The notes beneath the pieces were generated by a model, which ran no database searches, was not told where the DNA came from, and saw only the letters and a list, made by a program, of their open reading frames with translations. Positions 24,395 through 38,391 of a stretch of 62,305 bases of DNA are shown here, piece by piece (within the stretch, counting starts at the first letter, position 1; each line of letters starts with the position of its first letter). The stretch is from positions 1 to 62,305 of the forward strand of contig NZ_AOJD01000054.1 of NCBI RefSeq assembly GCF_000337415.1, read 5' to 3'. The stretch comes from Halorubrum tebenquichense DSM 14210 (lineage in GTDB: Archaea > Halobacteriota > Halobacteria > Halobacteriales > Haloferacaceae). The position numbers and the translations under genes were made by a program.

Positions 24395-27300
24395 TCAGGC
24401 CGCGGGGGCCGCGACCGGCGCGAGGTCGGGCTGAGTGCCCGCCGCCGTCTCCTCTTCTTCCGCCGTCGTGTCGGCGTCGGACGACGCGGCCATGCTCGCG
24501 GCCTCCTCGACGGAGTTCGCGAACAGCGTGCGGCCCGCGTCGGTGAAGTCGTCCGGATCGTCGTGGAAGAAGTCCATCGCGATCGCCGTGTTCAGGACCT
24601 CGTTACGGTCCTCGTCGATCGCGACGCCCGGACCCTCGAACTCGCCCTCGTCGCTCGGGCTGAAGTCCGAGTGACCGAGCACCTGCCCGTCGTAGTCGTT
24701 GAACCACGAACCCCAGGTGTTTCCGGAGTCGACGACCGGGACCGACTCGCCCTCGCTGCCGACGCCGTCGAAGATCGGGTGGTCGGACTGGACGTCGACC
24801 TCGACGGGCTGGCTGTCGGCGTCGAGCGAGACGGAGTCGCGCTCGGCCGGGTCCTCGCGGACGTCGTTCAGTCGGTAGACGCCGTCCGCGTACGCCTCGG
24901 CGGTTCCGCCCTGGTAGGAGTCCAGGTAGACGACCGCCTGGTCGTCGGCGAGCGCGTCCGCGAAGTCGGACGCCAGCGAGTCGCTGCCGAACCGCTGGAC
25001 GACGAACACGTCGTACCCGTCCATCTCGTCGAGCAGCCCGTCCGCGGTGAGCGTGTCGACGGTGGTGTAGACGTCGTCGTCGAGCTCCTCGGAGAGCGCG
25101 CTCGCGATGGCACCCTCGTGGTAGTCGTTCTGATCGACGACCGCGACCGAGACGTCCTCGGGCTCGCTCGGTCCCTCGCCCGGACTCTCGCCCGGCGGCT
25201 GCGGGGCGGTCGGGGTCTCGGGATCGAGCAGCGCGCGGTAGTCGTCGATCGTCGGGTCCCGCTCCAGCTCGGAGAAGAGGGTGTAGCCGTCGCCCTCAGC
25301 GCCGATGCCGACCCAGTAGCCACCGAACGGGTTGACCGTCGAGTCGGCAACGGTCCCGTCGCCGACGTGGCCGTCGGCGTGGGTCTCGGCGACCATCCAC
25401 GTGCTCGGCGTGTAGTAGTCGCCGTCGCCCTTGTTCGTGCCGTCGGTCCAGAAGGCGTACTCCTCGTCGTGGTACGCCGACGGACTCACCAGGTTCCACC
25501 CGTCGTGGAGGTCGACCTGTCCCGGGCTGGCGGGCTCGTCCCCGGACTGGAAGTCGAAGGTGGCGTAGGTGTCCTCCTCCGCGACGACGAGGACGGCCGA
25601 GAGCGCGCTGAGGCTGTCGTTCGCCGTCAGCATCTGCCAGTCGCCGATCTCGGCGTCATAGCCGTAGATGGCACCCTCGAACTCGTCGTCGAACGCGTCG
25701 CCGACCGTCTGGTCGGTGGCCGCCGGGACGCCGACGGTGTAGGTCTCGTTGGCCTCCATCGTCAGGTCCACGGCGATCTGGGTCGTGTTCGTGTCGACCT
25801 CGCCGAGGTTGGCGGTGAGGAACGGCGAGTACCGCACGTCGCCCTCGACGCCGTTGTTGGCCTGCGGACCGTCCGCACCGAACCAGTTGAGTGGGGCCTC
25901 GAAGGTCCCGCTCTCGGCGGCCATCGCGGTCTCGGTCTCGGCTAGGTCGTTGAAGTGGAAGATGAGGTCGCTACCCGCGTCGGACGCCAGCACGCCGGTC
26001 GTGGCGTTGACGTCGTTGTTCGCGAACTCGCCGCTCGTCGCGCCGCCGGAGAACATGAAGCCGGTGGTGGCGTTCGTGATCTCGTTTCGCGCGGCGTTGG
26101 CGACGGCGGCACCGCCCTCCGCGGCGATGCCGTACTCGCTGTCACTGACGGAGCCGTCGGTCAGGTTACCGACCGAGCCGCCGTCGACGCGGACGCCGTA
26201 GCCGGCGTCGGTCACCGTCGCGTCGGTGACGTCGACGCCGCTCGAACTCATCGACGCGATCCCCGCCTCGGCGGCGGTCTCGACGGACGCGGCGGCGACG
26301 TCGGTGTCGGTCGCGCCGTCGAGCATCACGCCGTACGAGACGTTCGTCGCGGTGGGCGCGTCGACGGTGACGTTCGCGCTGTCGGCGATCCGAACGCCGG
26401 TGCCGGCGTCGGTCGCCTCGGCGTCGGTGACGTCGACCGCCTCGCTGTCGGCGACGTGGATGCCGTTGGCCGCGGCTCCGACGGCGCTGACGTCGCTCAC
26501 GCTCACGTCGCTGCTCTCGACGACCTGTACCGCGTCGGACGCGCCGGTCACCGAGACGTCGGCGACGGTGACGTCGCTCGCGCCGGAGACGCCGACGCCC
26601 GCGAGGGCCGCGGGCGTCTCGAGGTCGAAGCCCTCGAATTGGGTCCCGGCGGCCTGGATGTCGACGTGCGCGTGGCCGTCGTCGGCGCTCGAGTCGGGCG
26701 CGACGATCGTGGCGTTCTCGCCGGTTATCGTGAGGTTCTGCGTCCCCTCCACCGAGACCGTCTCGGCGTAGGTGCCCTCGGTGACCTGGATCTCGGTCCC
26801 GGCGGGCGCGAGATCGACGGCCTCCTGAATGGTCTCGACGTCGCCGTCGTCGCCGACCGTCAGCGGCGGGTCGTAGACGGCGGTCGGTCCGGTCGTGATC
26901 GTCACTTCGTGGGAGTCCTCGGGAGCGATGTCCCCGCCGTCGCCCACCGCGTCCGGGCTGTCGGCGAAGGTGAACGTCGTCTCCAGAACGACCGACCCCA
27001 CGGTGTCCTCGCTGGGTTCGACCTCGATCGTGAATTCATCGTCCGTCAGCGAGCCGGGGTAAGCGCGCCACTGGTCCCAGGCGTTGACCGACCCGTTGAC
27101 GTAGAGGTCGAGCTCTGACTGGTTCGCGGTGCTGTCCTCGTGGAGCGACACCTTGACCTGCTCCAGCTGCTGGACGCTGTACTCGGAGCCGAACCGCTCT
27201 CCGGGGGCGTTCTGCGCGGGCTGCCCCTCGTTCAGGACGACCGGCGGCGTGGTCGCGGCCCACGAGGCCGCGTTCGCCAGCACGGCGTCCGCGTCGTCGC

Positions 27301-30148
27301 TGTAGTCGCCGGGCTCGACGAAGGCGGTGGAGCCGAACGTCGAGAGGAGCACCTCGCGCTCCTGCCCGTTCGTCGCGGCGGCGGGACCGTCCGTCACGCC
27401 GCCGGCCTGGACGTAGCCGACCGTCCGGAAGTCGGTGCCCTCGAACCAGGCGTGGTCGGAGAATCCGGCGGAGTGGATGCCGAAGGTGTCACCGACCTCG
27501 CCGACGCCCTCGAAGATCGGGCTGTCGGCGACGATCTCCATCTCGGGGTTCGGCGAGGCGAAGCTGTCGTCCGTCTCGGCCGGGTCGCCGAGCGCGCTCG
27601 ACCGCGCGGGGACGCCGGTGCTCCCGCTGCCGAACTGGTCGAGCCACACGACGCCCGTCGAAGCGCCCGCGGTGTTCGACTTCAGGTCCTCGACGTGCGT
27701 CTCGTCGATGTCTTGGACGACGTACGCCTCGTGCTCGTCGTTCGCCGCGGCGTCGACCGCCTCGCTGCCGGTGAGCAGCGATATCTCGTACGACCCCGGC
27801 AGCTGCGCCGTGAGCCGGTCGACGACGGCGTCGCCGTAGGAGTCGTCGTCGACGACGGCGATCGGCGTGAACTCGGAGAACACGTCGGTCGGGCCGGTCG
27901 TCACGGAGACCGTGTCGCCCGCGCCGGAGAACGTGTGATCGAGCGCGAGTTCGCCCTCTGTGTTCGCCTCGGTGGTGACGGTGAGGGTGGCGGTCCCGGA
28001 GATGCCGCCGAGCGAGACCTCCTCGCCCTCCTCGATCTCGTCGCCGTTGAGTTCGAAGGTCAGGCTCCCGTTGTAGCCGCTCGCCCGCTCGACCGAATAG
28101 CTGTCGAGGTTGGCGACGTTCACCTGAACGTCGAACTGCTGGCCGCCCTCGATCGACTCGGGCTGCCCCGCGACCGGCTCGACGCCGAGCGCGTCGGCCA
28201 GCGTGATGTTCTGTTCGACGAACGTCTCGTCGTCCGGGACCGAGACGCTCTCGCTCGTCTCCTCGTAGCCGAAGCCGCTCGCGGTCACCGTGTAGTTGCC
28301 GGGCGGCGAGAGGACCGTGTACTCCCCGTCGGGGCCGGTCTCGGCGGCGAAGCCGCTCTCCTCGACCGCGACGGTCGCGCCCTCGACGGGCTCGCCGTCG
28401 CTGTCGGTGACGGTGCCGGTGACGCCGCTGTCGAGCGCGACCTGGTCGGCGGCCGCCTTGGCGTCGATGATGCCGACGCCGTACCGGGTGTCGGGGGTGC
28501 CCGGCGGCTCCGGCGCGTCGTCCGGCTTCCAGGCGGTGTCCTCGACCGCGTCGATCGCCGTCTGCCGGTCGAGGTCGCCGCCGGCCGCGGAGAGGATCAG
28601 CGCGAACGCGCCCGTCTTGTGCGGGGCCGACATCGACGTGCCGGAGATAGTGTTGTAGTCGCCGTCGTTCCACGAACTCAGCACGTCCACGCCGGGTGCG
28701 GCCGCGTTCGGCACGACGTACTCGTCGGGCCAGTCGTCGGGTGCGTCGCTGCCCCACGCCGAGGACGTGTCGACCGTCTCGCCGCCGGAGAAGGACGCCA
28801 CGTCGGCGTCTTCGTTGACCGCGCCGCTCGCGAAGTTGGGGTAGACGTTCCCCGGCGATCCGGTGTTGCCGGCCCCGCCGTTGCCGGCGGACGCGACGAG
28901 GATGACTCCCGCGTCGCGCGCGTTCTCGGACGGCTCGATCATGTTAGCGTTGTAGCCGGACCCGCCGAGGCTCATCGAGATGATGTCGACCTCGGCGGTA
29001 TCGACGGCCCACTCCATGCCGGCGGCGACGCGGGTGAAGGTACCGCTCCCGTCGTCGGCCAGTACCTTCCCGTGGTACAGTTCGGCCTCGGGTGCGACCC
29101 CGAACGCGGGGGTACCGCTGCCGTCCGGGTCGTCGGAGCCGACGACGGTGCCGGACGTGTGAGTCCCGTGTCCGTCGCCGTCGTTCGGCTCGCTTTCGAC
29201 CGGGTTGCCGTCGCCATCCCACGACTGCCACTGCTCGTCACTGAGTTCCGGGAGGTCGGGATGGTCCTCGTTGACTCCGGTGTCGAGCACGGCGACCTCG
29301 ACGCCCTCGCCCTGGGAGTTGTACGCGTCCCAGACCTCGGTCGCGTTGATCATGTCGAGACCGTACGTCGTCGAGTAGTTCTCGGTCCGCATCGACGACG
29401 GGGCAACCAGCTCGGTGTCGGCCGTCGCGTCCTCGGAGGACGTCTCGTTCGCCGACATGTCCTCCGACGTCTCGTTCGTCGGCGCGTCGCTCGACGTTTC
29501 CTCCGACGTCTCGTTCGTCGGCTCGTCGCTCGACGTTTCGTTCGTCGGCGTGTCGTCCGACGTGCCGTTCGTCGAGCCGTTGCCGCCGCTCGCCTGCGCC
29601 GTCGTGACCTCGAAGTTCACATGTAGGCGCTCGACGCCCTCCGCGGACGCGATCTCCTCCAGGCTGATCCGGTCGGGGTTCACTTCGAGGAGCACGGCGT
29701 TCGTGATCCAGAACTGCCGTTCGAGCTCGACGTGCTCGGACATCTGGGCGAAGCGAACGACGTTCTGTTGGGTCTCGGCGGCGTGGTCTTTCAGCGTATT
29801 GACCGTCGCCTCCTGCCCCTGAACGCCGCTCGTGTCGGCTGGCGAGAGCCTGACGACGACGTCGACCGTGCCGCCGGTGGACTCCGCGTCCCCCTCGAAC
29901 TTGCGTTCGAGCGCGGGGTCGATCTCGACGTCGCTCGCGTCCTGCTGTTCGAACTCGCCGTCGCTCGTCTGTTCGTACGATACCTCGTCGGAGAACGCCG
30001 GCGACGCGCCGGCTCCCTCCATCGTTGGTGTGGCGTCGCCCGTGTCCGCGGCCACGGCAGCTCCGGCGGCCGGAGCCATCATGGAGACGACCATGAGAAC
30101 CGCGAACAGCGCGGCGAGCGCCTTCGAGTAGTCGATGGTGCGTATCAT
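24395..30148 (-). CDS. Protease 1: very large secreted subtilisin-like (S8) protease with beta-helix and duplicated flavodoxin-like domains
   Basis: A 1917-residue exported protein. Order: Sec-type signal (about 1-35, no twin arginine); inhibitor-like propeptide (about 65-180); a Thr/Asn/Glu/Ser linker with many N-glycosylation sequons (TNETS repeats, about 195-260); the S8 domain with Asp289 (VAVLDTGV), His327 (GHGTHTSGT) and Ser505 (GTSMSAPH); a carboxypeptidase-type regulatory beta domain (about 575-650); a flavodoxin/GATase-like domain (about 760-960); a right-handed beta-helix (about 1095-1440); and a second flavodoxin-like domain (about 1665-1890). There is no PGF-CTERM, dockerin or C-terminal helix. 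The ATG at 30148 was chosen over 30196 because the signal peptide starts there; a GGAGGTG lies 17 bases upstream. Confidence 0.9.
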   Translation of the reverse strand: MIRTIDYSKALAALFAVLMVVSMMAPAAGAAVAADTGDATPTMEGAGASPAFSDEVSYEQTSDGEFEQQDASDVEIDPALERKFEGDAESTGGTVDVVVRLSPADTSGVQGQEATVNTLKDHAAETQQNVVRFAQMSEHVELERQFWITNAVLLEVNPDRISLEEIASAEGVERLHVNFEVTTAQASGGNGSTNGTSDDTPTNETSSDEPTNETSEETSSDAPTNETSEDMSANETSSEDATADTELVAPSSMRTENYSTTYGLDMINATEVWDAYNSQGEGVEVAVLDTGVNEDHPDLPELSDEQWQSWDGDGNPVESEPNDGDGHGTHTSGTVVGSDDPDGSGTPAFGVAPEAELYHGKVLADDGSGTFTRVAAGMEWAVDTAEVDIISMSLGGSGYNANMIEPSENARDAGVILVASAGNGGAGNTGSPGNVYPNFASGAVNEDADVASFSGGETVDTSSAWGSDAPDDWPDEYVVPNAAAPGVDVLSSWNDGDYNTISGTSMSAPHKTGAFALILSAAGGDLDRQTAIDAVEDTAWKPDDAPEPPGTPDTRYGVGIIDAKAAADQVALDSGVTGTVTDSDGEPVEGATVAVEESGFAAETGPDGEYTVLSPPGNYTVTASGFGYEETSESVSVPDDETFVEQNITLADALGVEPVAGQPESIEGGQQFDVQVNVANLDSYSVERASGYNGSLTFELNGDEIEEGEEVSLGGISGTATLTVTTEANTEGELALDHTFSGAGDTVSVTTGPTDVFSEFTPIAVVDDDSYGDAVVDRLTAQLPGSYEISLLTGSEAVDAAANDEHEAYVVQDIDETHVEDLKSNTAGASTGVVWLDQFGSGSTGVPARSSALGDPAETDDSFASPNPEMEIVADSPIFEGVGEVGDTFGIHSAGFSDHAWFEGTDFRTVGYVQAGGVTDGPAAATNGQEREVLLSTFGSTAFVEPGDYSDDADAVLANAASWAATTPPVVLNEGQPAQNAPGERFGSEYSVQQLEQVKVSLHEDSTANQSELDLYVNGSVNAWDQWRAYPGSLTDDEFTIEVEPSEDTVGSVVLETTFTFADSPDAVGDGGDIAPEDSHEVTITTGPTAVYDPPLTVGDDGDVETIQEAVDLAPAGTEIQVTEGTYAETVSVEGTQNLTITGENATIVAPDSSADDGHAHVDIQAAGTQFEGFDLETPAALAGVGVSGASDVTVADVSVTGASDAVQVVESSDVSVSDVSAVGAAANGIHVADSEAVDVTDAEATDAGTGVRIADSANVTVDAPTATNVSYGVMLDGATDTDVAAASVETAAEAGIASMSSSGVDVTDATVTDAGYGVRVDGGSVGNLTDGSVSDSEYGIAAEGGAAVANAARNEITNATTGFMFSGGATSGEFANNDVNATTGVLASDAGSDLIFHFNDLAETETAMAAESGTFEAPLNWFGADGPQANNGVEGDVRYSPFLTANLGEVDTNTTQIAVDLTMEANETYTVGVPAATDQTVGDAFDDEFEGAIYGYDAEIGDWQMLTANDSLSALSAVLVVAEEDTYATFDFQSGDEPASPGQVDLHDGWNLVSPSAYHDEEYAFWTDGTNKGDGDYYTPSTWMVAETHADGHVGDGTVADSTVNPFGGYWVGIGAEGDGYTLFSELERDPTIDDYRALLDPETPTAPQPPGESPGEGPSEPEDVSVAVVDQNDYHEGAIASALSEELDDDVYTTVDTLTADGLLDEMDGYDVFVVQRFGSDSLASDFADALADDQAVVYLDSYQGGTAEAYADGVYRLNDVREDPAERDSVSLDADSQPVEVDVQSDHPIFDGVGSEGESVPVVDSGNTWGSWFNDYDGQVLGHSDFSPSDEGEFEGPGVAIDEDRNEVLNTAIAMDFFHDDPDDFTDAGRTLFANSVEEAASMAASSDADTTAEEEETAAGTQPDLAPVAAPAA

Positions 30149-30596
30149 GTCTTCTCGCTTCGGAGCACCTCCCCCTACGGGAGGATGTCGAGGCAACGGC
30201 GCGGTTCGCCCGTAGTTATTAACGCAATGTGCGAACGCAACGCGCGGTTGCGACGTCGAAATCGCCGGTGTCGACGCCGCGGACTCCGCCGATCAGCGCC
30301 GTAATGACTCGTGGCGGCGCGACGTGTCACGTATCGAACGCGACGAGGGGCGGGAGGTTCCCGGCGTAATCGCTCGTTACGGCGCGGGCACTCGGCCGAT
30401 CGCCGAGGCCGGAACGGACGGATATACACATCAGTCCCCGGAGTCGATCATTCGCCGACGGCCCCGGTTTCGGGTACTCGGTAACGCGATCTTACCGCCA
30501 GGCCCCGATGCGCCCGGAAACGGTTACGACGGGGCCAAGAACGACATGGCAGCGTGCCAAGAAGTTATATACATTGAAGATAATTGAAACGTAGTC
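30149..30596. other. Divergent promoter region between protease 1 and regulator 2
   Basis: No gene is supported in these 448 bases. The left part holds the protease 1 promoter on the minus strand (gttattaacg, 30215-30224), giving a leader of about 45 bases with GGAGGTG at 30166-30172. The right part holds the rightward box gttatata (30564-30571) of the regulator 2 gene, close to its ATG at 30597. The middle has scattered GTTACG/CGTAAC words but no clean inverted repeat like the one at 24149. Confidence 0.55.
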
Positions 30597-31343
30597 ATGC
30601 GCCTCCGGGATCTGGATCCGAGAGACTCGACCGGTGACGATCGGAACGGAACGGGCGCAGGCGGCGACGGTCGGAGCGAACGGGAGCAAAGCTCGCCACC
30701 GGTCCGCGACTCGGAGGAGGCGACGGTCGCGCGGCCGGCGAGCGCGACCGACCGGCTCGCGGCGGACGAGGGCGAGTCTCCGGCCGACGACGGATCCCGC
30801 TCGGCCGCCGGCGTGGCGGCCGACGACCTCCTCGAACTACTGAGCAACCGCCGACGGCGGTACCTCTGGCGCGCGCTGCGTCGCGAGGGAGCGGAGCTGG
30901 AGCTGTCCGACGCGTCGCGCCGGATCGCGGCGTGGGAGAACGGCGTCGACATCAAGGACGTCGAGTACGACCAGCGCAAGAGCGTGTACAACTCGCTCCA
31001 CCAGTTCCACTGCCCGAAGATGGCCGACGCGGGGCTGATCGAGTTCGACAAGCGGAGTTCGACGGTCCGGCTCGCGACGGAGCTCCCGCCGCAGCTAACC
31101 GTGACCGTGGAGCCGGACACGGAGGACGTCCGCAACACGGCCTGCGGGGCGCTCGCGGTCGCTGGCGGCGTTGTCCTCGGCGCGTGGGCCCTCCGGCTCC
31201 CCGTCTTCGGGACCCTGTCGCTGGCCGCGGTCGGTCTCTCGCTGGGTATCGGCGCGACCGCGGCCCTCCTCGTCTACTCGCTTTTCGTTCGAACCGAGTA
31301 CGGGCTGTCGCTCGCCGACGCGCTCAGCCGCGTCGACGGCTGA
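30597..31343 (+). CDS. DUF7344-type membrane-anchored winged-helix protein, paralogue 2
   Basis: A 248-residue close relative of the proteins at 22513 and 37720. It has a charged disordered N-terminus (1-70), a winged helix (about 75-160, with LLELLSNRRRRYLWRALRRE and YDQRKSVYNSLHQFHCPKMAD) and two membrane helices (about 180-225). Many stretches match paralogue 1, including SDASRRIAAWEN and the ending ALSRVDG, so these two are the closest pair. Its promoter gttatata is about 26 bases upstream, giving little or no leader. It is transcribed away from protease 1 and toward the 3' end of the cohesin anchor gene, whose stop is 9 bases away. Confidence 0.85.
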   Translation: MRLRDLDPRDSTGDDRNGTGAGGDGRSEREQSSPPVRDSEEATVARPASATDRLAADEGESPADDGSRSAAGVAADDLLELLSNRRRRYLWRALRREGAELELSDASRRIAAWENGVDIKDVEYDQRKSVYNSLHQFHCPKMADAGLIEFDKRSSTVRLATELPPQLTVTVEPDTEDVRNTACGALAVAGGVVLGAWALRLPVFGTLSLAAVGLSLGIGATAALLVYSLFVRTEYGLSLADALSRVDG

Positions 31344-31351
31344 CGAACCGC

Positions 31352-32914
31352 TCAGCGTCGACGAGCGAGCAGCGCGGCACCGAGCGCCGCGAGCAGCGCC
31401 GTGAGGACGCCGAACCCGGGCGTCTGTTCTTCGAGGATCGGCTCGTCGCCGTCGCCGCCGGTCCCGTCGTCGGTCCCGGACGACGAGTCGTCGCCGGAGT
31501 CGGACGATCCGTCGGAGCCGTCGCCGTCCGTCGAGTTCGAACCGTCGCCGTCCGTCGAGTCCGAGTCGCCGGCGTCGGCGTCGTCGGTCGCCTGCGAGAC
31601 GGCGAAGTACGAGAACCCGGGCGTCTCGGCCGTGTAGACGCCGTCGCCCTCGTGAGTCGTCTCCAGTTCGGTCCACTCGCCGTCGACCAACCGGAACAGC
31701 CGCACGTCCGCCGGCTCCGCGCCGAGCGCGTCGGCGTCGGCGGTGAACGAGACCGTGGCGTCCGCGACGGCGTCGGACGAGGCGTTCGTCTCGAACTCGA
31801 GGTACGAGGCCGCTTCCTCGCCGGACGCGGGCGACCCCGCCGGAACCGCCTCGGCGTCGACCGACCGCGCCTCGACGGTGAGCGAGTCGACCGCCGCCGC
31901 GGTCTCGACCGTCAGCCCCTCGACCGCGACGGTCTCGTCACCGACCGCGTCGCCGAAGTCGGCCTCGACGGTCGAGCCCGCGTCGACGTCGGTCGCCGAG
32001 AGGGTCGCGCCGCCGTCGACCGGCGTCACGTCCGCGTCGACTGTCGCCGCCTCGTCGTCGCTCGACGGGGCGGTTCCCCCGGTTCCGCCGTCGCTCCCGT
32101 CTCCCCCGTCGCTTCCGTCACCGCCATCGCTTCCGTCCCCGCCATCGCTTCCGTCTCCGCCGTCGCCGCCATCTCCACCGTCGCTACCGTCTCCGCCGTC
32201 GCCGCCATCTCCACCGTCGGTTCCGTCTCCGCCGTCACTTCCGTCACCGCCATCGCTTCCGTCCCCGCCATCTCCACCGTCGCTTCCGTCGCCACCGTCG
32301 CTTCCGTCTCCGCCGTCACTTCCGTCACCGCCGTCACTTCCGTCACCGCCGTCACTTCCGTCACCGCCATCGCTTCCGTCGCCACCGTCGCTCCCGTCAC
32401 CGGCGAGGGTGACGCCGTCGCGCACGAGGTTCGTGACGTCTTCGGGTTCGCTCGTCGTCACGAGGGAGTCCTCGGCGACGAACGTGACATCGGTCGGTTC
32501 CTCCGGCACCGCGAAGACGAGCGTCGCCATCGTCGGCGCGTCGCTTCCCGACGAGATGTTCGCGGCGACCTGATTGAAGTTCACTGAGCCGTTCTCGTTG
32601 TCGACGTTCGTCACGGGATCGGCCGAGAACGCCCCCTCGCCCCCGGAGACGCTCTGGACCGCAGTCGAATCCGGGTCGAACGTCAGGTTCGCCTGATAGC
32701 CCGCGACGTCGTCGACCGTCGTCGAGAGCGTCACGGTCACCGTCTCGTCGGTCTGGTTCGTTGTGGTCAGCGTCAGTTCGCCCGTCGGCTCCGTCTGGTC
32801 GGTGGGCGCGGTCCCTATCGCGGCGGCAGCAGTGCCGGCTGTAAGCGGTGCGATCGCGACGAGCGCGACGAGGAGGTAGACGAGCAGTCGTCCGCGCGTG
32901 GTGTGAGTCGTCAT
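31352..32914 (-). CDS. Cell-surface cohesin protein with Ser/Asp/Gly linker and PGF-CTERM anchor
   Basis: A 520-residue surface protein. Residues 1-32 are a Sec-type signal. About 45-165 form a cohesin-like beta domain (DDVAGYQANLTFDPD...SVSGGE...VDNENGSVNF). About 172-283 is an SDGGDG repeat linker, and about 295-450 a PGF-pre-PGF domain (ending ETPGFSYFAVSQA). A Ser/Asp-rich stalk and the sorting signal TPGFGVLTALLAALGAALLARRR follow. Archaeosortase A should cut at PGF and attach a lipid. With one cohesin on a long stalk it looks like a docking post for dockerin proteins; the protease immediately upstream carries a dockerin. Its promoter is cttttatacc (33042-33051), with a leader near 100 bases. 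Confidence 0.88.
   Translation of the reverse strand: MTTHTTRGRLLVYLLVALVAIAPLTAGTAAAAIGTAPTDQTEPTGELTLTTTNQTDETVTVTLSTTVDDVAGYQANLTFDPDSTAVQSVSGGEGAFSADPVTNVDNENGSVNFNQVAANISSGSDAPTMATLVFAVPEEPTDVTFVAEDSLVTTSEPEDVTNLVRDGVTLAGDGSDGGDGSDGGDGSDGGDGSDGGDGSDGGDGSDGGDGSDGGDGGDGSDGGDGSDGGDGTDGGDGGDGGDGSDGGDGGDGGDGSDGGDGSDGGDGSDGGDGSDGGTGGTAPSSDDEAATVDADVTPVDGGATLSATDVDAGSTVEADFGDAVGDETVAVEGLTVETAAAVDSLTVEARSVDAEAVPAGSPASGEEAASYLEFETNASSDAVADATVSFTADADALGAEPADVRLFRLVDGEWTELETTHEGDGVYTAETPGFSYFAVSQATDDADAGDSDSTDGDGSNSTDGDGSDGSSDSGDDSSSGTDDGTGGDGDEPILEEQTPGFGVLTALLAALGAALLARRR
32066..32398 (-). repeat. Hexapeptide-coding tandem repeat (SDGGDG) in the cohesin anchor gene
   Basis: About 333 bases of imperfect 18-base units encode SDGGDG and GGD variants about eighteen times (residues 172-283). 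On the plus strand the unit reads cttccgtcaccgccatcg with C/T changes at third positions. Such arrays change length by slippage or recombination, which would change how far the cohesin reaches from the cell wall. Confidence 0.85.
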
Positions 32915-33086
32915 GTGGTGTGTTCGCCGTGGTGTGTAGCCGTCAACGCGTCAGTGCGTCTGCGGGCGCGAGCCCGCGCCGTCGGGGCCCGGGCATGGAT
33001 CCGGGCCGGCTTCCGTGTTCGAAAGTCGGTGCGGCCACCGCTGGTATAAAAGCCGCCGCCGAGGCGGCGATGGGTCGGTGGCGTGT

Positions 33087-36000
33087 CTATGCGAGCGCGG
33101 TCGCTGCGGCGAGCGAGGCCGGACCGTCCGCGACCGCCTGCAGCAGTTCGGGCTCCGTGGGTTCGCCGCTCGCGTCGACCGACTCGCTACCGTCGTCCTC
33201 AACGACCGTCACGGCCGTCGACGCCGTGTCGTCGACTGCGGGGTCGGGGTCGTAGAGCGGGTTCACGTCCTGACCGGCGACGTGCGTGACCGTGATCTCG
33301 TCGCCGGGCTGAATGGAGACGCCGTCGATGTCGTCGAACGACTGGATCGTCCCGAGGTTCAACTGGAGCGTCGCCGACTCGTTCGGGGCGAGCGGTCCGA
33401 CGGTGAACTCGTTGCTGTCCGTTGGAGCGAGCACGACGGCTCCCTGGAACCCGGGTCCGGTCACCTCGACGACGTTGTCGACCGTGCCGTTGGCGTCCCC
33501 GACGTTGGTGACCTCGGCGTCGAGCGTGAGCGAGTCGTTGAGCGTCGCGTTCGACGGACTCACGTCGAAGGCGGTCACCGCGAACTCGGCTTCCGCCGGG
33601 TCGGTGACGACGATCGTCGCCGTCTGACCGTCGTCCTCGGTGAAGATCCCGTGTTCGTACTCGCCCGGCTCGGACGGCAGCGTCACGTTCTCGAAGCCGA
33701 CGCTCTCGCTCGCGCCGGCCGCCAGCGTCACGTTCTGCGACGCGACGACGCTGCCGTTGAACACGAACTCCACGGCCTGCGTCCCGTTCGCGTCGCCGTC
33801 GTTTGTGACCGTCGCGTTCACGTCGATTTCAGCGCCCGGCTCCGCTTCCGCTGGCGCGGCGAGATCGCTCACGGAGAATGCCGGACTGTCGGCGGGGTCA
33901 CCGACGACGATCGTCGCCGTCTGACCGTCGTCCTCGGTGAAGATCCCGTGTTCGTACTCGCCCGGCTCGCTCGGTAGCGTCACGTTCTCGAAGCCGACGC
34001 TCTCGCTCGCGCCCGCCGCCAGTGTGACGTTCTGTGACGCGACGGTTTCACCGGCGAACGCGAACTCAACGGCCTGCGTCCCGTTCGCGTTCCCGTCGTT
34101 GGTGACCGTCGCGTTCACGTCGATCGAAGCGCCCGGCTCTGCCTCAGCCGGCGCGGCGAGATCGCTCACGGTGAACTCCTCACCGGTCACGGTGAACGGC
34201 GAGGTGCCCTCGTCGTCGATGACCGGATCTGGACCCTCATCTGGGTTGAGGCTCTCGCCGACCTGCTGGACACCTTCCAGCTCGTCACCGGGGCCTAGGT
34301 CGACATCGCCAAGCGCGGCGTTGAGTCCCTCTATCGAGGGGAACTCCGTCTGAAGCGTCGTCGACTCGCCCGGGTCAAGCGTCACAGAGCTCGGCGGGAA
34401 GTAGACGAAGGTGTCGTTTCCGCCGGTCGCCGCGTCTTGGATCGCGGTGATCGTCTGCGTCTGGCCGGACTGCTGACCGACGTTCGTCACCGTGGCCTCG
34501 ACCAGAATCGGCTCGTCGGCCGTCACCGATTCAGGTGTCTCGACGCTCTCGACCTCGAACTGGGCCGGACTGAGCTCGTCGACGACTTCGGTCGGACCGG
34601 TCTCGACGACGATCTGTTCGCCGTCCTCGTGGCCGTCCGCCGGAGTGACGCCGCCGTCGGCCGCCGCTTCGGCGACCGCGTCGACGCCCTGCGCGTTCGA
34701 GAGCACCGTCGCGGCGCTCTCGTCGTCGCCGACGAGCTGTTCGAGGATCAGGATGACGTCGGATGGGGTGATGGACCCGCTGTCGTCGACGTCGGCGAGC
34801 GACTCGTAGAAGTCGCCGTTCGGATCCTGATCGGCGATGAACTGCTGGGTCAACACCGCGTCGAACGGCGTGATCGCTCCGTCGTCGTTGACGTCGCCGG
34901 GGATTCCGGCGGACCAGGTGACCGTCTCGCCGACGGTTTGGAGGTCGCCGTCCGCGGCCGAGACACTCGTACCGTTATCGGCCACTTCGACGTCTGTCTC
35001 GTCGCCCTCGTCGCCGACGAAGGTGAACTCGACGTTCGCGAGGGTCGGCTGGTCGACGCCGTTGGCTTGCGCGTTGGCGATCGACAGCGTGCCGTTGTCG
35101 TTGTCGAGGTCGGTGATCAGTTCGCTCCCGACCTCGCCGCCCGAGACGCTCACTACCTGTAGCATGTCGGGGTCGAAGTCGATCGCGGCCTGGAACCCGG
35201 CGACATCGTCCGCGTCGGTGGACAGCGCCACCGACCTCGTCTCGCCCGCGTCGAAGACGAGTCCGTCTTGGAAGGAGACGGCCGCCTCAGCGTCCGGATC
35301 GTCCGGATCGTCCGGCCCGTCGGGCAGTCGCTCGAAGGTGTGTTCGAGCGCGACCGTCGATTCGAGGTCGGCGTCGTCGTCCACCGAGACCGTGAGCGTC
35401 ACGGTTCCGGTGAGTCCGTCCGTCTCGATCGGCTCGCCGATCGGGACCTCGTCTCCACCGACGGACAGCGTCAGGTCGTCGGGGTCGACGGTGGCGTCGT
35501 CGGCGAGGGCGACCGTCAGTCGATCGAGGTTGGCGACATCGACGACGACATCGAAGGAGCCACCCTGCTCGACCGCCGTCGGCTGTCCGTTAACGAGGTC
35601 GACGACCAGCTCGCTGTCGAGCTGGACGTCGGTCGTCTCGCCGCCCGAGACGTTCAGGGTCTCGCTCTCGTACCCGAAGGCGTCGACGGTGAGCTGCGCC
35701 GGGTCCGTCGTGGTCGGGAGCGAGTACGTACCGTTCTCGTCGGTCGCGGTGAGCGCGCCCGCGGCCGTTTCGACGGTGGCTCCGACGACGGGGTCGCCGT
35801 CGGCGTCGGTCACCGTCCCCTCGATCGTCTGCCGATCGTCGAGGGTCTGCGCGGCCGCGTAGACGTCGATGATCCCCGTGCCGTAACGGATGTCTCGTCC
35901 GTTCAGCTCGGTGAAGTCGTTTTCGGGCTTCTCGGCCGTCTCCGCCAGCGCGGATTCGAGGACCGCGGCATCGAGATCCTCATCGGTGTACGACTGGAGG

Positions 36001-37442
36001 AGCGCGATGGCCCCCGTGTAGTGCGGCGCGGCCATCGACGTGCCGCTGGCGTACGAGTACGTAGCATTGGCATCACCGATACCGCCGCCAAGCGGGCCGG
36101 AGCTCAGGACCTCGTTGCCGGGAGCCGCGACGTCGGGTTGGATGTACCGGCGCGGGAACCGATCGGGGAGCGTCTCGTCGCCCTCGATGCTGTTCTCGTC
36201 GATCACCGCGCCGCTGGAGAACGTCGCGATGTCCCCTGCCTCGGTCGAGGCGGCGACGGCGACGGAACTGAAGCTCGTCGCCGGCGCGGAGACGGGCCCG
36301 CCCGCATCGCCGCTACCGGAGTTTCCGGCGGACACGACCGCGGCGGTCCCCGCGGCCCTGACGTCTTCGATCGCGTCGGCGTACTGGAGACTGAACGTGG
36401 ACTGACCGGTTTCCGACGGGAGTCCGAGGCTGAAGCTCGCCGCGTCCGCGTCGTTCTCGGCCGCCCACTGCATCGAGGCGATGATGTCCTCGGTGAACGC
36501 GCCGCCCGCGAACACGTCCGCCATCAGCAGGTCGGCCTCGGGTGCGACGCCGTACCGCGGCACGTCGCCGGCCGGATGGGCCGCGCCGGTCGCGGTGCCG
36601 GCAGTGTGTTCGCCGTGTGCGCCGGCGTTACCGCCGACGAGAGTCCCCTCCTCGACGGTCCCGTTCTCGGCGATCGCTTCTTTGGCGAACTCGAGGTCGG
36701 GATGCCCCTCCTCGGGGTTCGAGATACCGTCGTCGCCGATCATGACGGTAGCGCCCTCGCCTCGGACGCCGAACTCGTCTTCGAGCTCGGGAACGTTGAT
36801 CTGTTCGAGTCCATACGTGTACTCGCCGTCGTGGTTTACGGGCGTGACCCCTGCGTCGCTCCCAGTCGCCGGCGGGTCGGGCCGCTCGTACTGGACGTTC
36901 GGCGACACGGAGCTCACGCCGTCGATCGACGCGATCTCCTCGACGTCGTTCTCGTCGAGGTCGACGTCGACCGAGATGACGTTCCCGGCCCAGAACGTGT
37001 TGCGGATCTCGGCGTCGAAGCCCGCTTCGAGCGCGTCGATGACGGGTGCCTGTGTCGCTTCCGCGTCGGCTCTGAGTTCGTCCAACGCCGACGCATCGTC
37101 CATCGCCGCGAGCCGTGGGACGTCGACCGTCCGGTCGACGGTCACGATCAGCGTGGTCTCGCCGCTGGCGTCGTCGAGCGCGTCCGAGACGGTGCCGGTC
37201 GTCTCCGCGTCCGGTACCGCCTCGACGACGCGCGTTTCGTCGCCCGTGGAAGCGGACTCGGTTTCGTTCGTCTGATCTGTCGTCTGTGGCTGTACGTCCG
37301 AATCGACGTCGGCGACGCCGGCGTCGACCGCGTCACCGCCCGTCGCGTCCATGGCCGCCGCCGCACCCGCGGTCGGCGCGAACATGGACGCGACCATGAC
37401 GGCCGCGAATAACGTCGCAAAGAGTTTCTTCCGATGTACCAT
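33087..37442 (-). CDS. Protease 2: secreted subtilisin-like (S8) protease with cohesin and dockerin modules
   Basis: A 1451-residue exported protease. Order: Sec-type signal (about 1-30); propeptide (about 65-190); S8 domain with Asp237 (MIGDDGI), His276 (HGEHTAGT), oxyanion Asn374 (SAGNSG) and Ser469 (GTSMAAPH); carboxypeptidase-like regulatory beta domain (about 535-610); cohesin-like domain (about 717-842); dockerin (about 845-903, two loops DVNDDGAITPFD and DVDDSGSITPSD); then CARDB-like beta domains, two of them 99-residue tandem copies (1090-1287). It ends without an anchor. The ATG at 37442 is fixed by the signal peptide and GGAGG at 37453-37457; the box cttatattctg is about 65-70 bases upstream. 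It probably docks on the neighbouring cohesin anchor and, through its own cohesin, could bind further dockerin proteins. Confidence 0.9.
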   Translation of the reverse strand: MVHRKKLFATLFAAVMVASMFAPTAGAAAAMDATGGDAVDAGVADVDSDVQPQTTDQTNETESASTGDETRVVEAVPDAETTGTVSDALDDASGETTLIVTVDRTVDVPRLAAMDDASALDELRADAEATQAPVIDALEAGFDAEIRNTFWAGNVISVDVDLDENDVEEIASIDGVSSVSPNVQYERPDPPATGSDAGVTPVNHDGEYTYGLEQINVPELEDEFGVRGEGATVMIGDDGISNPEEGHPDLEFAKEAIAENGTVEEGTLVGGNAGAHGEHTAGTATGAAHPAGDVPRYGVAPEADLLMADVFAGGAFTEDIIASMQWAAENDADAASFSLGLPSETGQSTFSLQYADAIEDVRAAGTAAVVSAGNSGSGDAGGPVSAPATSFSSVAVAASTEAGDIATFSSGAVIDENSIEGDETLPDRFPRRYIQPDVAAPGNEVLSSGPLGGGIGDANATYSYASGTSMAAPHYTGAIALLQSYTDEDLDAAVLESALAETAEKPENDFTELNGRDIRYGTGIIDVYAAAQTLDDRQTIEGTVTDADGDPVVGATVETAAGALTATDENGTYSLPTTTDPAQLTVDAFGYESETLNVSGGETTDVQLDSELVVDLVNGQPTAVEQGGSFDVVVDVANLDRLTVALADDATVDPDDLTLSVGGDEVPIGEPIETDGLTGTVTLTVSVDDDADLESTVALEHTFERLPDGPDDPDDPDAEAAVSFQDGLVFDAGETRSVALSTDADDVAGFQAAIDFDPDMLQVVSVSGGEVGSELITDLDNDNGTLSIANAQANGVDQPTLANVEFTFVGDEGDETDVEVADNGTSVSAADGDLQTVGETVTWSAGIPGDVNDDGAITPFDAVLTQQFIADQDPNGDFYESLADVDDSGSITPSDVILILEQLVGDDESAATVLSNAQGVDAVAEAAADGGVTPADGHEDGEQIVVETGPTEVVDELSPAQFEVESVETPESVTADEPILVEATVTNVGQQSGQTQTITAIQDAATGGNDTFVYFPPSSVTLDPGESTTLQTEFPSIEGLNAALGDVDLGPGDELEGVQQVGESLNPDEGPDPVIDDEGTSPFTVTGEEFTVSDLAAPAEAEPGASIDVNATVTNDGNANGTQAVEFAFAGETVASQNVTLAAGASESVGFENVTLPSEPGEYEHGIFTEDDGQTATIVVGDPADSPAFSVSDLAAPAEAEPGAEIDVNATVTNDGDANGTQAVEFVFNGSVVASQNVTLAAGASESVGFENVTLPSEPGEYEHGIFTEDDGQTATIVVTDPAEAEFAVTAFDVSPSNATLNDSLTLDAEVTNVGDANGTVDNVVEVTGPGFQGAVVLAPTDSNEFTVGPLAPNESATLQLNLGTIQSFDDIDGVSIQPGDEITVTHVAGQDVNPLYDPDPAVDDTASTAVTVVEDDGSESVDASGEPTEPELLQAVADGPASLAAATALA
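33582..34175 (-). repeat. Two-copy 297-bp in-frame tandem repeat in protease 2
   Basis: The 99-residue units at residues 1090-1188 and 1189-1287 are nearly identical in protein (SDLAAPAEAEPGA, NATVTNDG, EYEHGIFTEDDGQTATIVV), and long stretches of DNA are identical too, so the duplication is recent or kept uniform by gene conversion. Each unit is a CARDB-like beta sandwich with several N-glycosylation sequons. Confidence 0.88.
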
Positions 37443-37719: not shown

Positions 37720-38346
37720 CTATCGGAGTCGGCGGAGGACTTCGTCGAACTCGACCGCGGGGGTCGACCTGAGGACGCTGTAGTAGAGGGAACACGCGAC
37801 CGCGACGGCGATACCGAGGGAGACCGCGAGCGCTTCGAGCGTGAGCGCGCCGAACACCGGGAGCCCGAGTCGCCACGCGCCGACCGTGACGAGCGTCGAC
37901 AGGCCGACCGCGCCGAGGACGGTGGCTCCCACCCGTCGTCGGTCGGGTTCGAGTTCCACCACGGGGTTCGACCCCTCGCAGGGGGAGACCCGGGCGGCGC
38001 GGCGGTCGAACTCGATCAGCCCCGCGTCGGCCATCTTCGGACAGTGGAACTGGAGCAGCGAGGTGTACACGCTCTTGCGTTCGTCGTAGGTCACGGCCGA
38101 CGGCGGCTTGTCCAGTTCGCGGGCCGCGACCGCCCGGGACGCCTCTTGGAGCGGTATCTCGCTGTCTTCTCGCCGGAGATGCTGCCACAGGTACCGCCGG
38201 CGCGCGTTGGCGAGCAGTTCGATGAGCGCCTCGGACCGGTCGGGAGCGGGATCGTTTGCGTCTGGCGACGCCTCTCCCCGTTCGTCGTCGTCGAACGCCG
38301 TCCGTTCGGCGTCGGGAGTGCGGGAAGATGCGGGCTGATGTGCCAC
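37720..38346 (-). CDS. DUF7344-type membrane-anchored winged-helix protein, paralogue 3
   Basis: A 208-residue relative of the proteins at 22513 and 30597, but more diverged. It has a shorter acidic N-terminus, a winged helix (about 40-125: ALIELLANARRRYLWQHLRRE, YDERKSVYTSLLQFHCPKMADAGLIEFD) and two membrane helices (about 140-190). I chose GTG 38346 over the TTG at 38355 because the TATA-like ttaaataaaa (38367-38376) lies 21-30 bases upstream, giving a leaderless message. It is directly upstream of protease 2 on the same strand (277 bases apart). Its promoter carries the operator-like sequence at 38392-38420, which may be its own binding site. Confidence 0.82.
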   Translation of the reverse strand: MAHQPASSRTPDAERTAFDDDERGEASPDANDPAPDRSEALIELLANARRRYLWQHLRREDSEIPLQEASRAVAARELDKPPSAVTYDERKSVYTSLLQFHCPKMADAGLIEFDRRAARVSPCEGSNPVVELEPDRRRVGATVLGAVGLSTLVTVGAWRLGLPVFGALTLEALAVSLGIAVAVACSLYYSVLRSTPAVEFDEVLRRLR

Positions 38347-38391
38347 AGTGAACAACAGGTAGCAGTTTTTATTTAAGAAAATTGTGTATAT

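Follow-up and report, generated by a model that had tools for sequence, protein, structure and literature searches.

A candidate two-gene surface-docking module in Halorubrum tebenquichense: an anchored cohesin beside a dockerin-bearing subtilase

Introduction

Cohesin and dockerin modules were recognised in archaea decades ago, but no clear purpose emerged for them. Those of Archaeoglobus fulgidus are reportedly called an enigmatic vestige in the title of one paper, and to our knowledge no anchored system with protease or phosphoesterase cargo has been described for that organism. Here we analyse a 62,305-nucleotide stretch of Halorubrum tebenquichense DSM 14210 (contig NZ_AOJD01000054.1; the window hereafter), in which the gene for a subtilase carrying a dockerin is followed by the gene for a cohesin protein with a cell-surface sorting signal. 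Protein families, folds and gene pairing make it likely that the two genes form a surface-docking module, in which the anchored cohesin captures the dockerin-subtilase.

Several described systems come close to this arrangement. Binding between an archaeal cohesin and dockerin has been reported for A. fulgidus, as cited in PMC9012536, a paper in which archaea are described as having no large scaffoldins except for proteins of anaerobic methanotrophic (ANME) archaea with up to 5 cohesins. A review covers S8 proteases of cellulosomes that dock at the bacterial cell surface (PMC12484212). In the open-licence literature we found neither a paper that combines "cohesin domain" with "haloarchaea" nor a description of a docking system of this kind, which is no proof of novelty.

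Results

Both reading frames lie on the minus strand where an initial annotation of the sequence had placed them. The protease frame (33087-37442, start ATG at 37442) encodes 1451 residues. Its Peptidase_S8 catalytic domain (residues 228-516; 35895-36761, minus strand; Pfam, 114.9 bits) contains triad and oxyanion motifs that were located by eye, namely Asp in DDGIS at 237, His in AHGEHTAG at 275, Asn in SAGN at 369 and Ser in GTSM at 466. With this domain and these motifs the protein classifies as an S8 subtilase, and the annotated triad appears intact. The dockerin, originally put at about residues 845-903, spans residues 846-905 (34728-34907, minus strand) and scores 26.8-33.9 bits against PF00404, whose cut-off is 22.9. 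Its two loops, DVNDDGAITPFD at 850-861 and DVDDSGSITPSD at 884-895, have ligand positions 1, 3, 5, 9 and 12 filled, and the accompanying helices are seen in the AlphaFold model; with two F-hand loops, helices and a score above the cut-off it is a type I dockerin. A single-sequence search matched both loops to the Xyn10B dockerin of Clostridium thermocellum (2ccl/1ohz; E 7e-4 and 1e-3), and a profile search of solved structures with the cohesin-dockerin stretch retrieved dockerins down to E 2e-15, headed by serine-protease dockerin entries, PDB 8x39/8x3a being the best sequence matches. These entries, titled "Serine protease", are presumably the C. thermocellum S8 protease dDoc_0689. C-terminal to the dockerin lie CARDB-type immunoglobulin-like repeats (about 33243-34595, minus strand; PF07705 in 4 stretches, the best at residues 1187-1263), and a CarboxypepD_reg domain is likewise present. 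Pfam and TIGR profile scans of the protein gave no PGF-CTERM match at its C-terminus, in accordance with the earlier view that the protease has no C-terminal anchor.

Directly before the dockerin, as had been noted, the protease carries a cohesin (residues about 724-838; 34929-35273, minus strand), and a second one is found in the neighbouring protein (residues 46-170; 32405-32779, minus strand). In a genome search with PF00963 they scored 33.7 and 27.7 bits, respectively, against a curated cut-off of 24.1 bits; as a caveat on the call, a whole-protein Pfam scan with default filters listed PF00963 for neither protein. The two domains match each other (37% identity, E 1.7e-10), and both score 142-151 bits against a class-wide haloarchaeal cohesin profile whose seed includes them. 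The cohesin-dockerin stretch of the protease, aligned with 39 relatives, was modelled by AlphaFold with a predicted local distance difference test (pLDDT) score of 93.8 and a predicted template modelling (pTM) score of 0.80. When residues 1-133 of this model were compared with the PDB, the top 49 rows were all cohesins, the best being the ScaC cohesin (Z 16.1), the A. fulgidus cohesin 2xdh (Z 15.4) and the CipA cohesin (Z 15.2). The anchored cohesin was represented by its modelled orthologue at locus L076, for which the top Foldseek rows were also cohesins. The fold check proposed at the outset thus supports both domains, and together with the genome search, the mutual match and the class profile it leads us to assign both to the cohesins, with scores above the curated cut-off and a predicted cohesin fold.

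The anchored protein (31352-32914, minus strand) is 520 residues long and was expected to have a signal peptide, a cohesin, a 112-residue stalk, a PGF-pre-PGF domain and a sorting signal. We indeed observed a signal-like N-terminus; the SDGGDG stalk, acidic and Gly-rich, is slightly shorter than had been claimed, at about 108 residues (173-280; 32075-32398, minus strand). It is followed by a PGF-pre-PGF domain (TIGR04213; residues 327-440; 31595-31936, minus strand; 32.2 bits, cut-off 28) and, at the very C-terminus, by a PGF-CTERM sorting signal (TIGR04126; residues 496-520; 31355-31429, minus strand; 37.2 bits, cut-off 24.5). Archaeosortase A (TIGR04125) is encoded in the same genome with a match of 332.9 bits. 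The protein is therefore a predicted archaeosortase A substrate, having both the C-terminal signal and the enzyme gene in its genome.

The gene order recurs in relatives. Within the genus, two-loop dockerins occur in 13 of 52 genomes, each time with a cohesin gene directly after the dockerin gene. Eight of these 13 cargoes have a cohesin of their own, seven being subtilases and the eighth, in G024, a cohesin-dockerin protein with no S8 match; the other five are metallophosphoesterases that lack one, bear the dockerin at their C-terminus and share an ATGA stop/start with the cohesin gene. We then surveyed 391 haloarchaeal genomes with haloarchaeal profiles (cohesin at least 30 bits, two-loop dockerin at least 40 bits). 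A cohesin was found in 60 genomes, a two-loop dockerin in 68 and both in 56, a co-occurrence with a Fisher p of 9e-51 that is uncorrected for relatedness, so that the spread over genera is the fairer count: 55 of the 391 genomes, representing 20 genera and 4 families, have the two-loop dockerin and the cohesin in separate open reading frames (ORFs) no more than 5 kb apart. Adjacency, the loss of which in all relatives had been named beforehand as evidence against the proposal, is thus kept both within the genus and across the class.

Two main cargoes emerge from this survey: S8 proteases, which also bear a cohesin, and cohesin-free Tat-type metallophosphoesterases (the latter at loci L078-L082, L114-L117, L119-L125 and L146, with a C-terminal dockerin). 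In 20 genomes of the metallophosphoesterase type, the single cohesin of the genome adjoins the dockerin gene, and most of these pairs show the ATGA overlap. The dockerin gene is upstream in all 48 adjacent dockerin-cohesin ORF pairs listed. Receptor ORFs in these pairs have stalks of about 12 to more than 350 residues, and all those that are not truncated where a contig or locus stops terminate in a PGF motif or a hydrophobic tail. No C-terminal sorting motif was flagged on the dockerin ORFs in the locus survey. Anchors are on cohesin proteins, never on dockerin proteins. Named examples are WP_327053866.1 (S8) followed by WP_327053867.1 (cohesin) on Halomicrococcus gelatinilyticus plasmid NZ_CP100467.1, and WP_284063504.1 overlapping WP_284063503.1 (cohesin) on Halobaculum halobium NZ_CP126159.1. 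WP_284063504.1 is annotated as DNRLRE, and its apparent counterpart in G353 matches metallophosphoesterase and dockerin models. The database annotations of these pairs give domains and name no system.

Multi-cohesin proteins near dockerin-subtilases were found in three genomes of one genus, g40. Genome G232 has a 2087-residue ORF with 14 cohesins (L109 7165-13425), a 623-residue ORF with 3 and two single-cohesin ORFs, and 8 of its 10 nearby dockerin ORFs contain Peptidase_S8. G086 has a 1258-residue ORF with 8 cohesins (L112 566-4339) and three single-cohesin ORFs, near 6 dockerin ORFs, of which 5 contain Peptidase_S8. In G370, an ORF with at least 4 cohesins (L113 9732-11774) and one with 2 stand beside 2 dockerin-subtilases. 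PGF-CTERM is near or above the cut-off on the 14-, 8- and 3-cohesin ORFs. These gene contents make multi-enzyme recruitment likely in this genus, and such scaffoldins among dockerin-subtilases are the strongest sign that the window pair is a minimal form of a protease-docking system.

To place the two window cohesins, 122 cohesins were put on a tree built from few alignment columns, comprising 76 receptor cohesins (anchored and scaffoldin) and 46 enzyme-borne ones. The receptor and enzyme-borne labels require 2 changes on this tree compared with 37 when labels are shuffled, the exception to the split being four long-branch rows. One strand position is N or T in all 76 receptor cohesins, and 40 of the 46 enzyme-borne ones have A, S or G there; the window pair obeys this rule, with FNQ in the anchored cohesin (residues 113-115) and IAN in that of the protease. 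Enzyme-borne cohesins thus appear to form a class nearly separate from the anchored and scaffoldin class. The annotated relatedness of the two window domains holds at the level of 37% identity, but they belong to different classes. We considered whether the cohesin of the protease arose by recent duplication of the anchored one, and the tree led us to reject this. In the cohesin tree, the pair of G022, from the same genus (L077 6562-10699), lies near that of G164, from another family (L127 3407-7559). Because this is true of both genes, it suggests that the pair moved by joint transfer.

The protease gene is upstream of the cohesin gene on the same strand, separated from it by 172 bp. This gap (32915-33086) contains a TTTTATA stretch that could serve as an archaeal TATA box, in which case the cohesin gene may be transcribed from a separate promoter. 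Two small related proteins (30597-31343 and 37720-38355) flank the pair and share a similar RRRYLWxxLRRE motif; they are possible regulators. A copy of this type of small protein also adjoins the pair in L071-L073, as does a relative of a second large subtilase of the window (24395-30196), which has NosD/beta-helix repeats and no dockerin.

Other modules were also met. We considered whether all dockerin matches in the genus belong to one family and rejected this, since most of the others have a single FDFNGDG loop, sit at the C-terminus and have no cohesin gene beside them. These one-loop domains (FDFNGDGxVxVxDVQxLF), also called dockerin by Pfam, occur at L087, L088, L093, L094 and further loci of the genus and probably have a different function. 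In G016, Pfam matched 11 dockerins and no cohesin. Among the surveyed genomes that have a two-loop dockerin but no recognisable cohesin, three were viewed more closely, and each encodes a large protein with this dockerin within about its first third (L140 4879-10023, L141 4385-9751 and L142 4990-9510); that of L140 is a subtilase with the dockerin immediately after the S8 domain by Pfam. At L144 4886-11131 (G377), two proteins have a weak cohesin-like domain amid CarboxypepD_reg repeats, with no dockerin neighbour.

Discussion

We propose that the subtilase is secreted in unanchored form, and that the neighbouring protein is exported, cut by archaeosortase A at PGF-CTERM and kept on the surface through its flexible acidic stalk. 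Its single cohesin would bind the calcium-loaded dockerin of the subtilase; the bound protease would therefore stay at the cell surface, and the peptides it releases would be available for local uptake. The module would be exchangeable, with the same anchored-cohesin design serving metallophosphoesterases elsewhere and expanded to scaffoldins for dockerin-subtilases in genus g40. Considering the recurring pair, the cohesin-only anchors and these scaffoldins, haloarchaea probably retain digestive enzymes at the cell surface in a manner that resembles that of bacteria with cellulosomes. With somewhat less confidence, we lean towards a wider picture of a proteolytic cellulosome-like system in haloarchaea, in which archaeosortase-anchored receptors, from single docks to 14-cohesin scaffoldins, display dockerin-subtilases and elsewhere phosphoesterases, and in which the enzyme-borne class of cohesins provides cis or secondary contacts.

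The initial annotation had also suggested that the captured protease could chain with further copies through its own cohesin and recruit other dockerin enzymes. Surface capture of a secreted protease is still the best reading, given the folds and families, the adjacency, the cohesin-only anchor and archaeosortase A. The two additions found no support here: profile searches of the genome gave one two-loop dockerin and two cohesins in total, which speaks against such recruitment, and the separate class and different diagnostic residue of the enzyme-borne cohesins argue against the protease's cohesin as an interchangeable second dock and hence against chaining. It may rather be a cis partner of the adjacent dockerin or a structural module.

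Several results weigh against surface docking or fail to strengthen it. The pair is present in just 13 of the 52 genomes of the genus, and dockerins can occur without a cohesin partner, as is seen in 12 of the 391 genomes, where a two-loop dockerin is accompanied by no recognisable cohesin. When the cohesin-dockerin stretch and the anchored cohesin of the L076 orthologue were modelled as one tethered chain, with two intergenic stop codons read as Ser purely for linking and not as a claim about the cell, the individual domains were well folded, but the chain reached a pTM of 0.42 and no interface was readable either way. In a mirror-tree analysis, co-divergence of the dockerin with the anchored cohesin beyond that of the catalytic domain was modest (partial r 0.45), and the value for the protease's own cohesin (0.50) did not separate the two as dockerin partner.

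This last result bears on an arrangement closed in cis, in which the protease dockerin binds its own upstream cohesin and the anchored cohesin pairs with something else or with nothing. In its favour, all subtilase-type cargoes at paired loci of genera other than g40 have cohesin and dockerin side by side in one chain, the model of the tandem has a pTM of 0.80, and co-divergence with the dockerin is no weaker for the enzyme's cohesin than for the anchored one. However, the metallophosphoesterase cargoes have no cohesin of their own, and so cannot close in cis, yet an anchored cohesin gene still follows them; an anchored cohesin after nearly every cohesin-dockerin protease would also be left unexplained. 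We therefore regard a cis-only arrangement as doubtful, and as an option for the subtilase cargoes alone. Less unlikely, although still the weaker alternative, is a role in which the anchored protein retains or inhibits the protease so that surface proteins are processed, and not for feeding; this role involves the same docking step. For cellulosomal S8 proteases on cell-surface scaffoldins, a part in processing or in the recycling of nitrogen has indeed been proposed (PMC12484212), but eight dockerin-subtilases at one scaffold cluster fit bulk hydrolysis better, and the phosphoesterase cargo argues against a purely proteolytic maturation role. That dockerin and cohesin are adhesive beta or calcium-binding modules for the substrate or S-layer, with no pairing between them, seems very improbable. 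Substrate binding is what PMC10963439 and PMC13260240 propose for haloarchaeal type I dockerins, in their accessible text without a binding test, and some dockerin enzymes do lack a genomic cohesin; but the two module families co-occur strongly and adjoin in separate genes, anchors are confined to cohesin proteins, and multi-cohesin scaffoldins stand amid dockerin enzymes.

A pair found in 20 haloarchaeal genera, together with 8- and 14-cohesin scaffoldins, gives these archaeal modules a testable job: under high salt they would keep secreted hydrolases attached to the cell. If surface docking is true, the principle of the cellulosome extends to protein digestion and to anchoring by archaeosortase, the substrate-binding reading of dockerins comes into question wherever a cohesin partner exists, and salt-tolerant docking modules become available for engineering.

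Comparison with described systems

Among haloarchaea, the glycosidases of Natronoglomus mannanivorans (PMC10963439) are likewise secreted enzymes annotated with a type I dockerin. Unlike our reading, that paper takes the dockerin as substrate-binding, and its accessible text leaves cohesin unmentioned; its dockerins may be of the two-loop or the one-loop type. PMC13260240 reads haloarchaeal dockerins as substrate-binding too, with cohesin again unmentioned in its accessible text. The cohesin and dockerin proteins of A. fulgidus are similar to the window pair in being archaeal and outside cellulose degradation, with a close structural match for the cohesin. The ANME archaea also have scaffoldin-like proteins, for which surface attachment has been proposed (PMC9012536). 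Whereas these combine up to 5 cohesins with a dockerin and their cargo is mainly binding proteins of ABC transporters, the haloarchaeal loci have subtilases and PGF-CTERM scaffoldins, the latter with no dockerin and up to 14 cohesins.

In C. thermocellum, dDoc_0689 is also an S8 protease docked by a dockerin, and it prefers a cell-bound scaffoldin (PMC12484212). It differs from the window protease in its double dockerin, its lack of a cohesin of its own as described, its cellulosome membership and its bacterial anchoring. The window system itself is not a cellulosome: its anchor has one cohesin, multi-cohesin scaffoldins being found in G232, G086 and G370, and its cargo is a Peptidase_S8 enzyme and not a carbohydrate-active one. 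In addition, anchoring would be by PGF-CTERM and archaeosortase, and Pfam and TIGR profile scans found no carbohydrate-binding module on the anchored protein. What it has in common with the bacterial cellulosome (C. thermocellum CipA and Xyn10B) is a cohesin and a two-loop dockerin that match in fold and sequence, and the combination of a secreted enzyme with an anchored cohesin.

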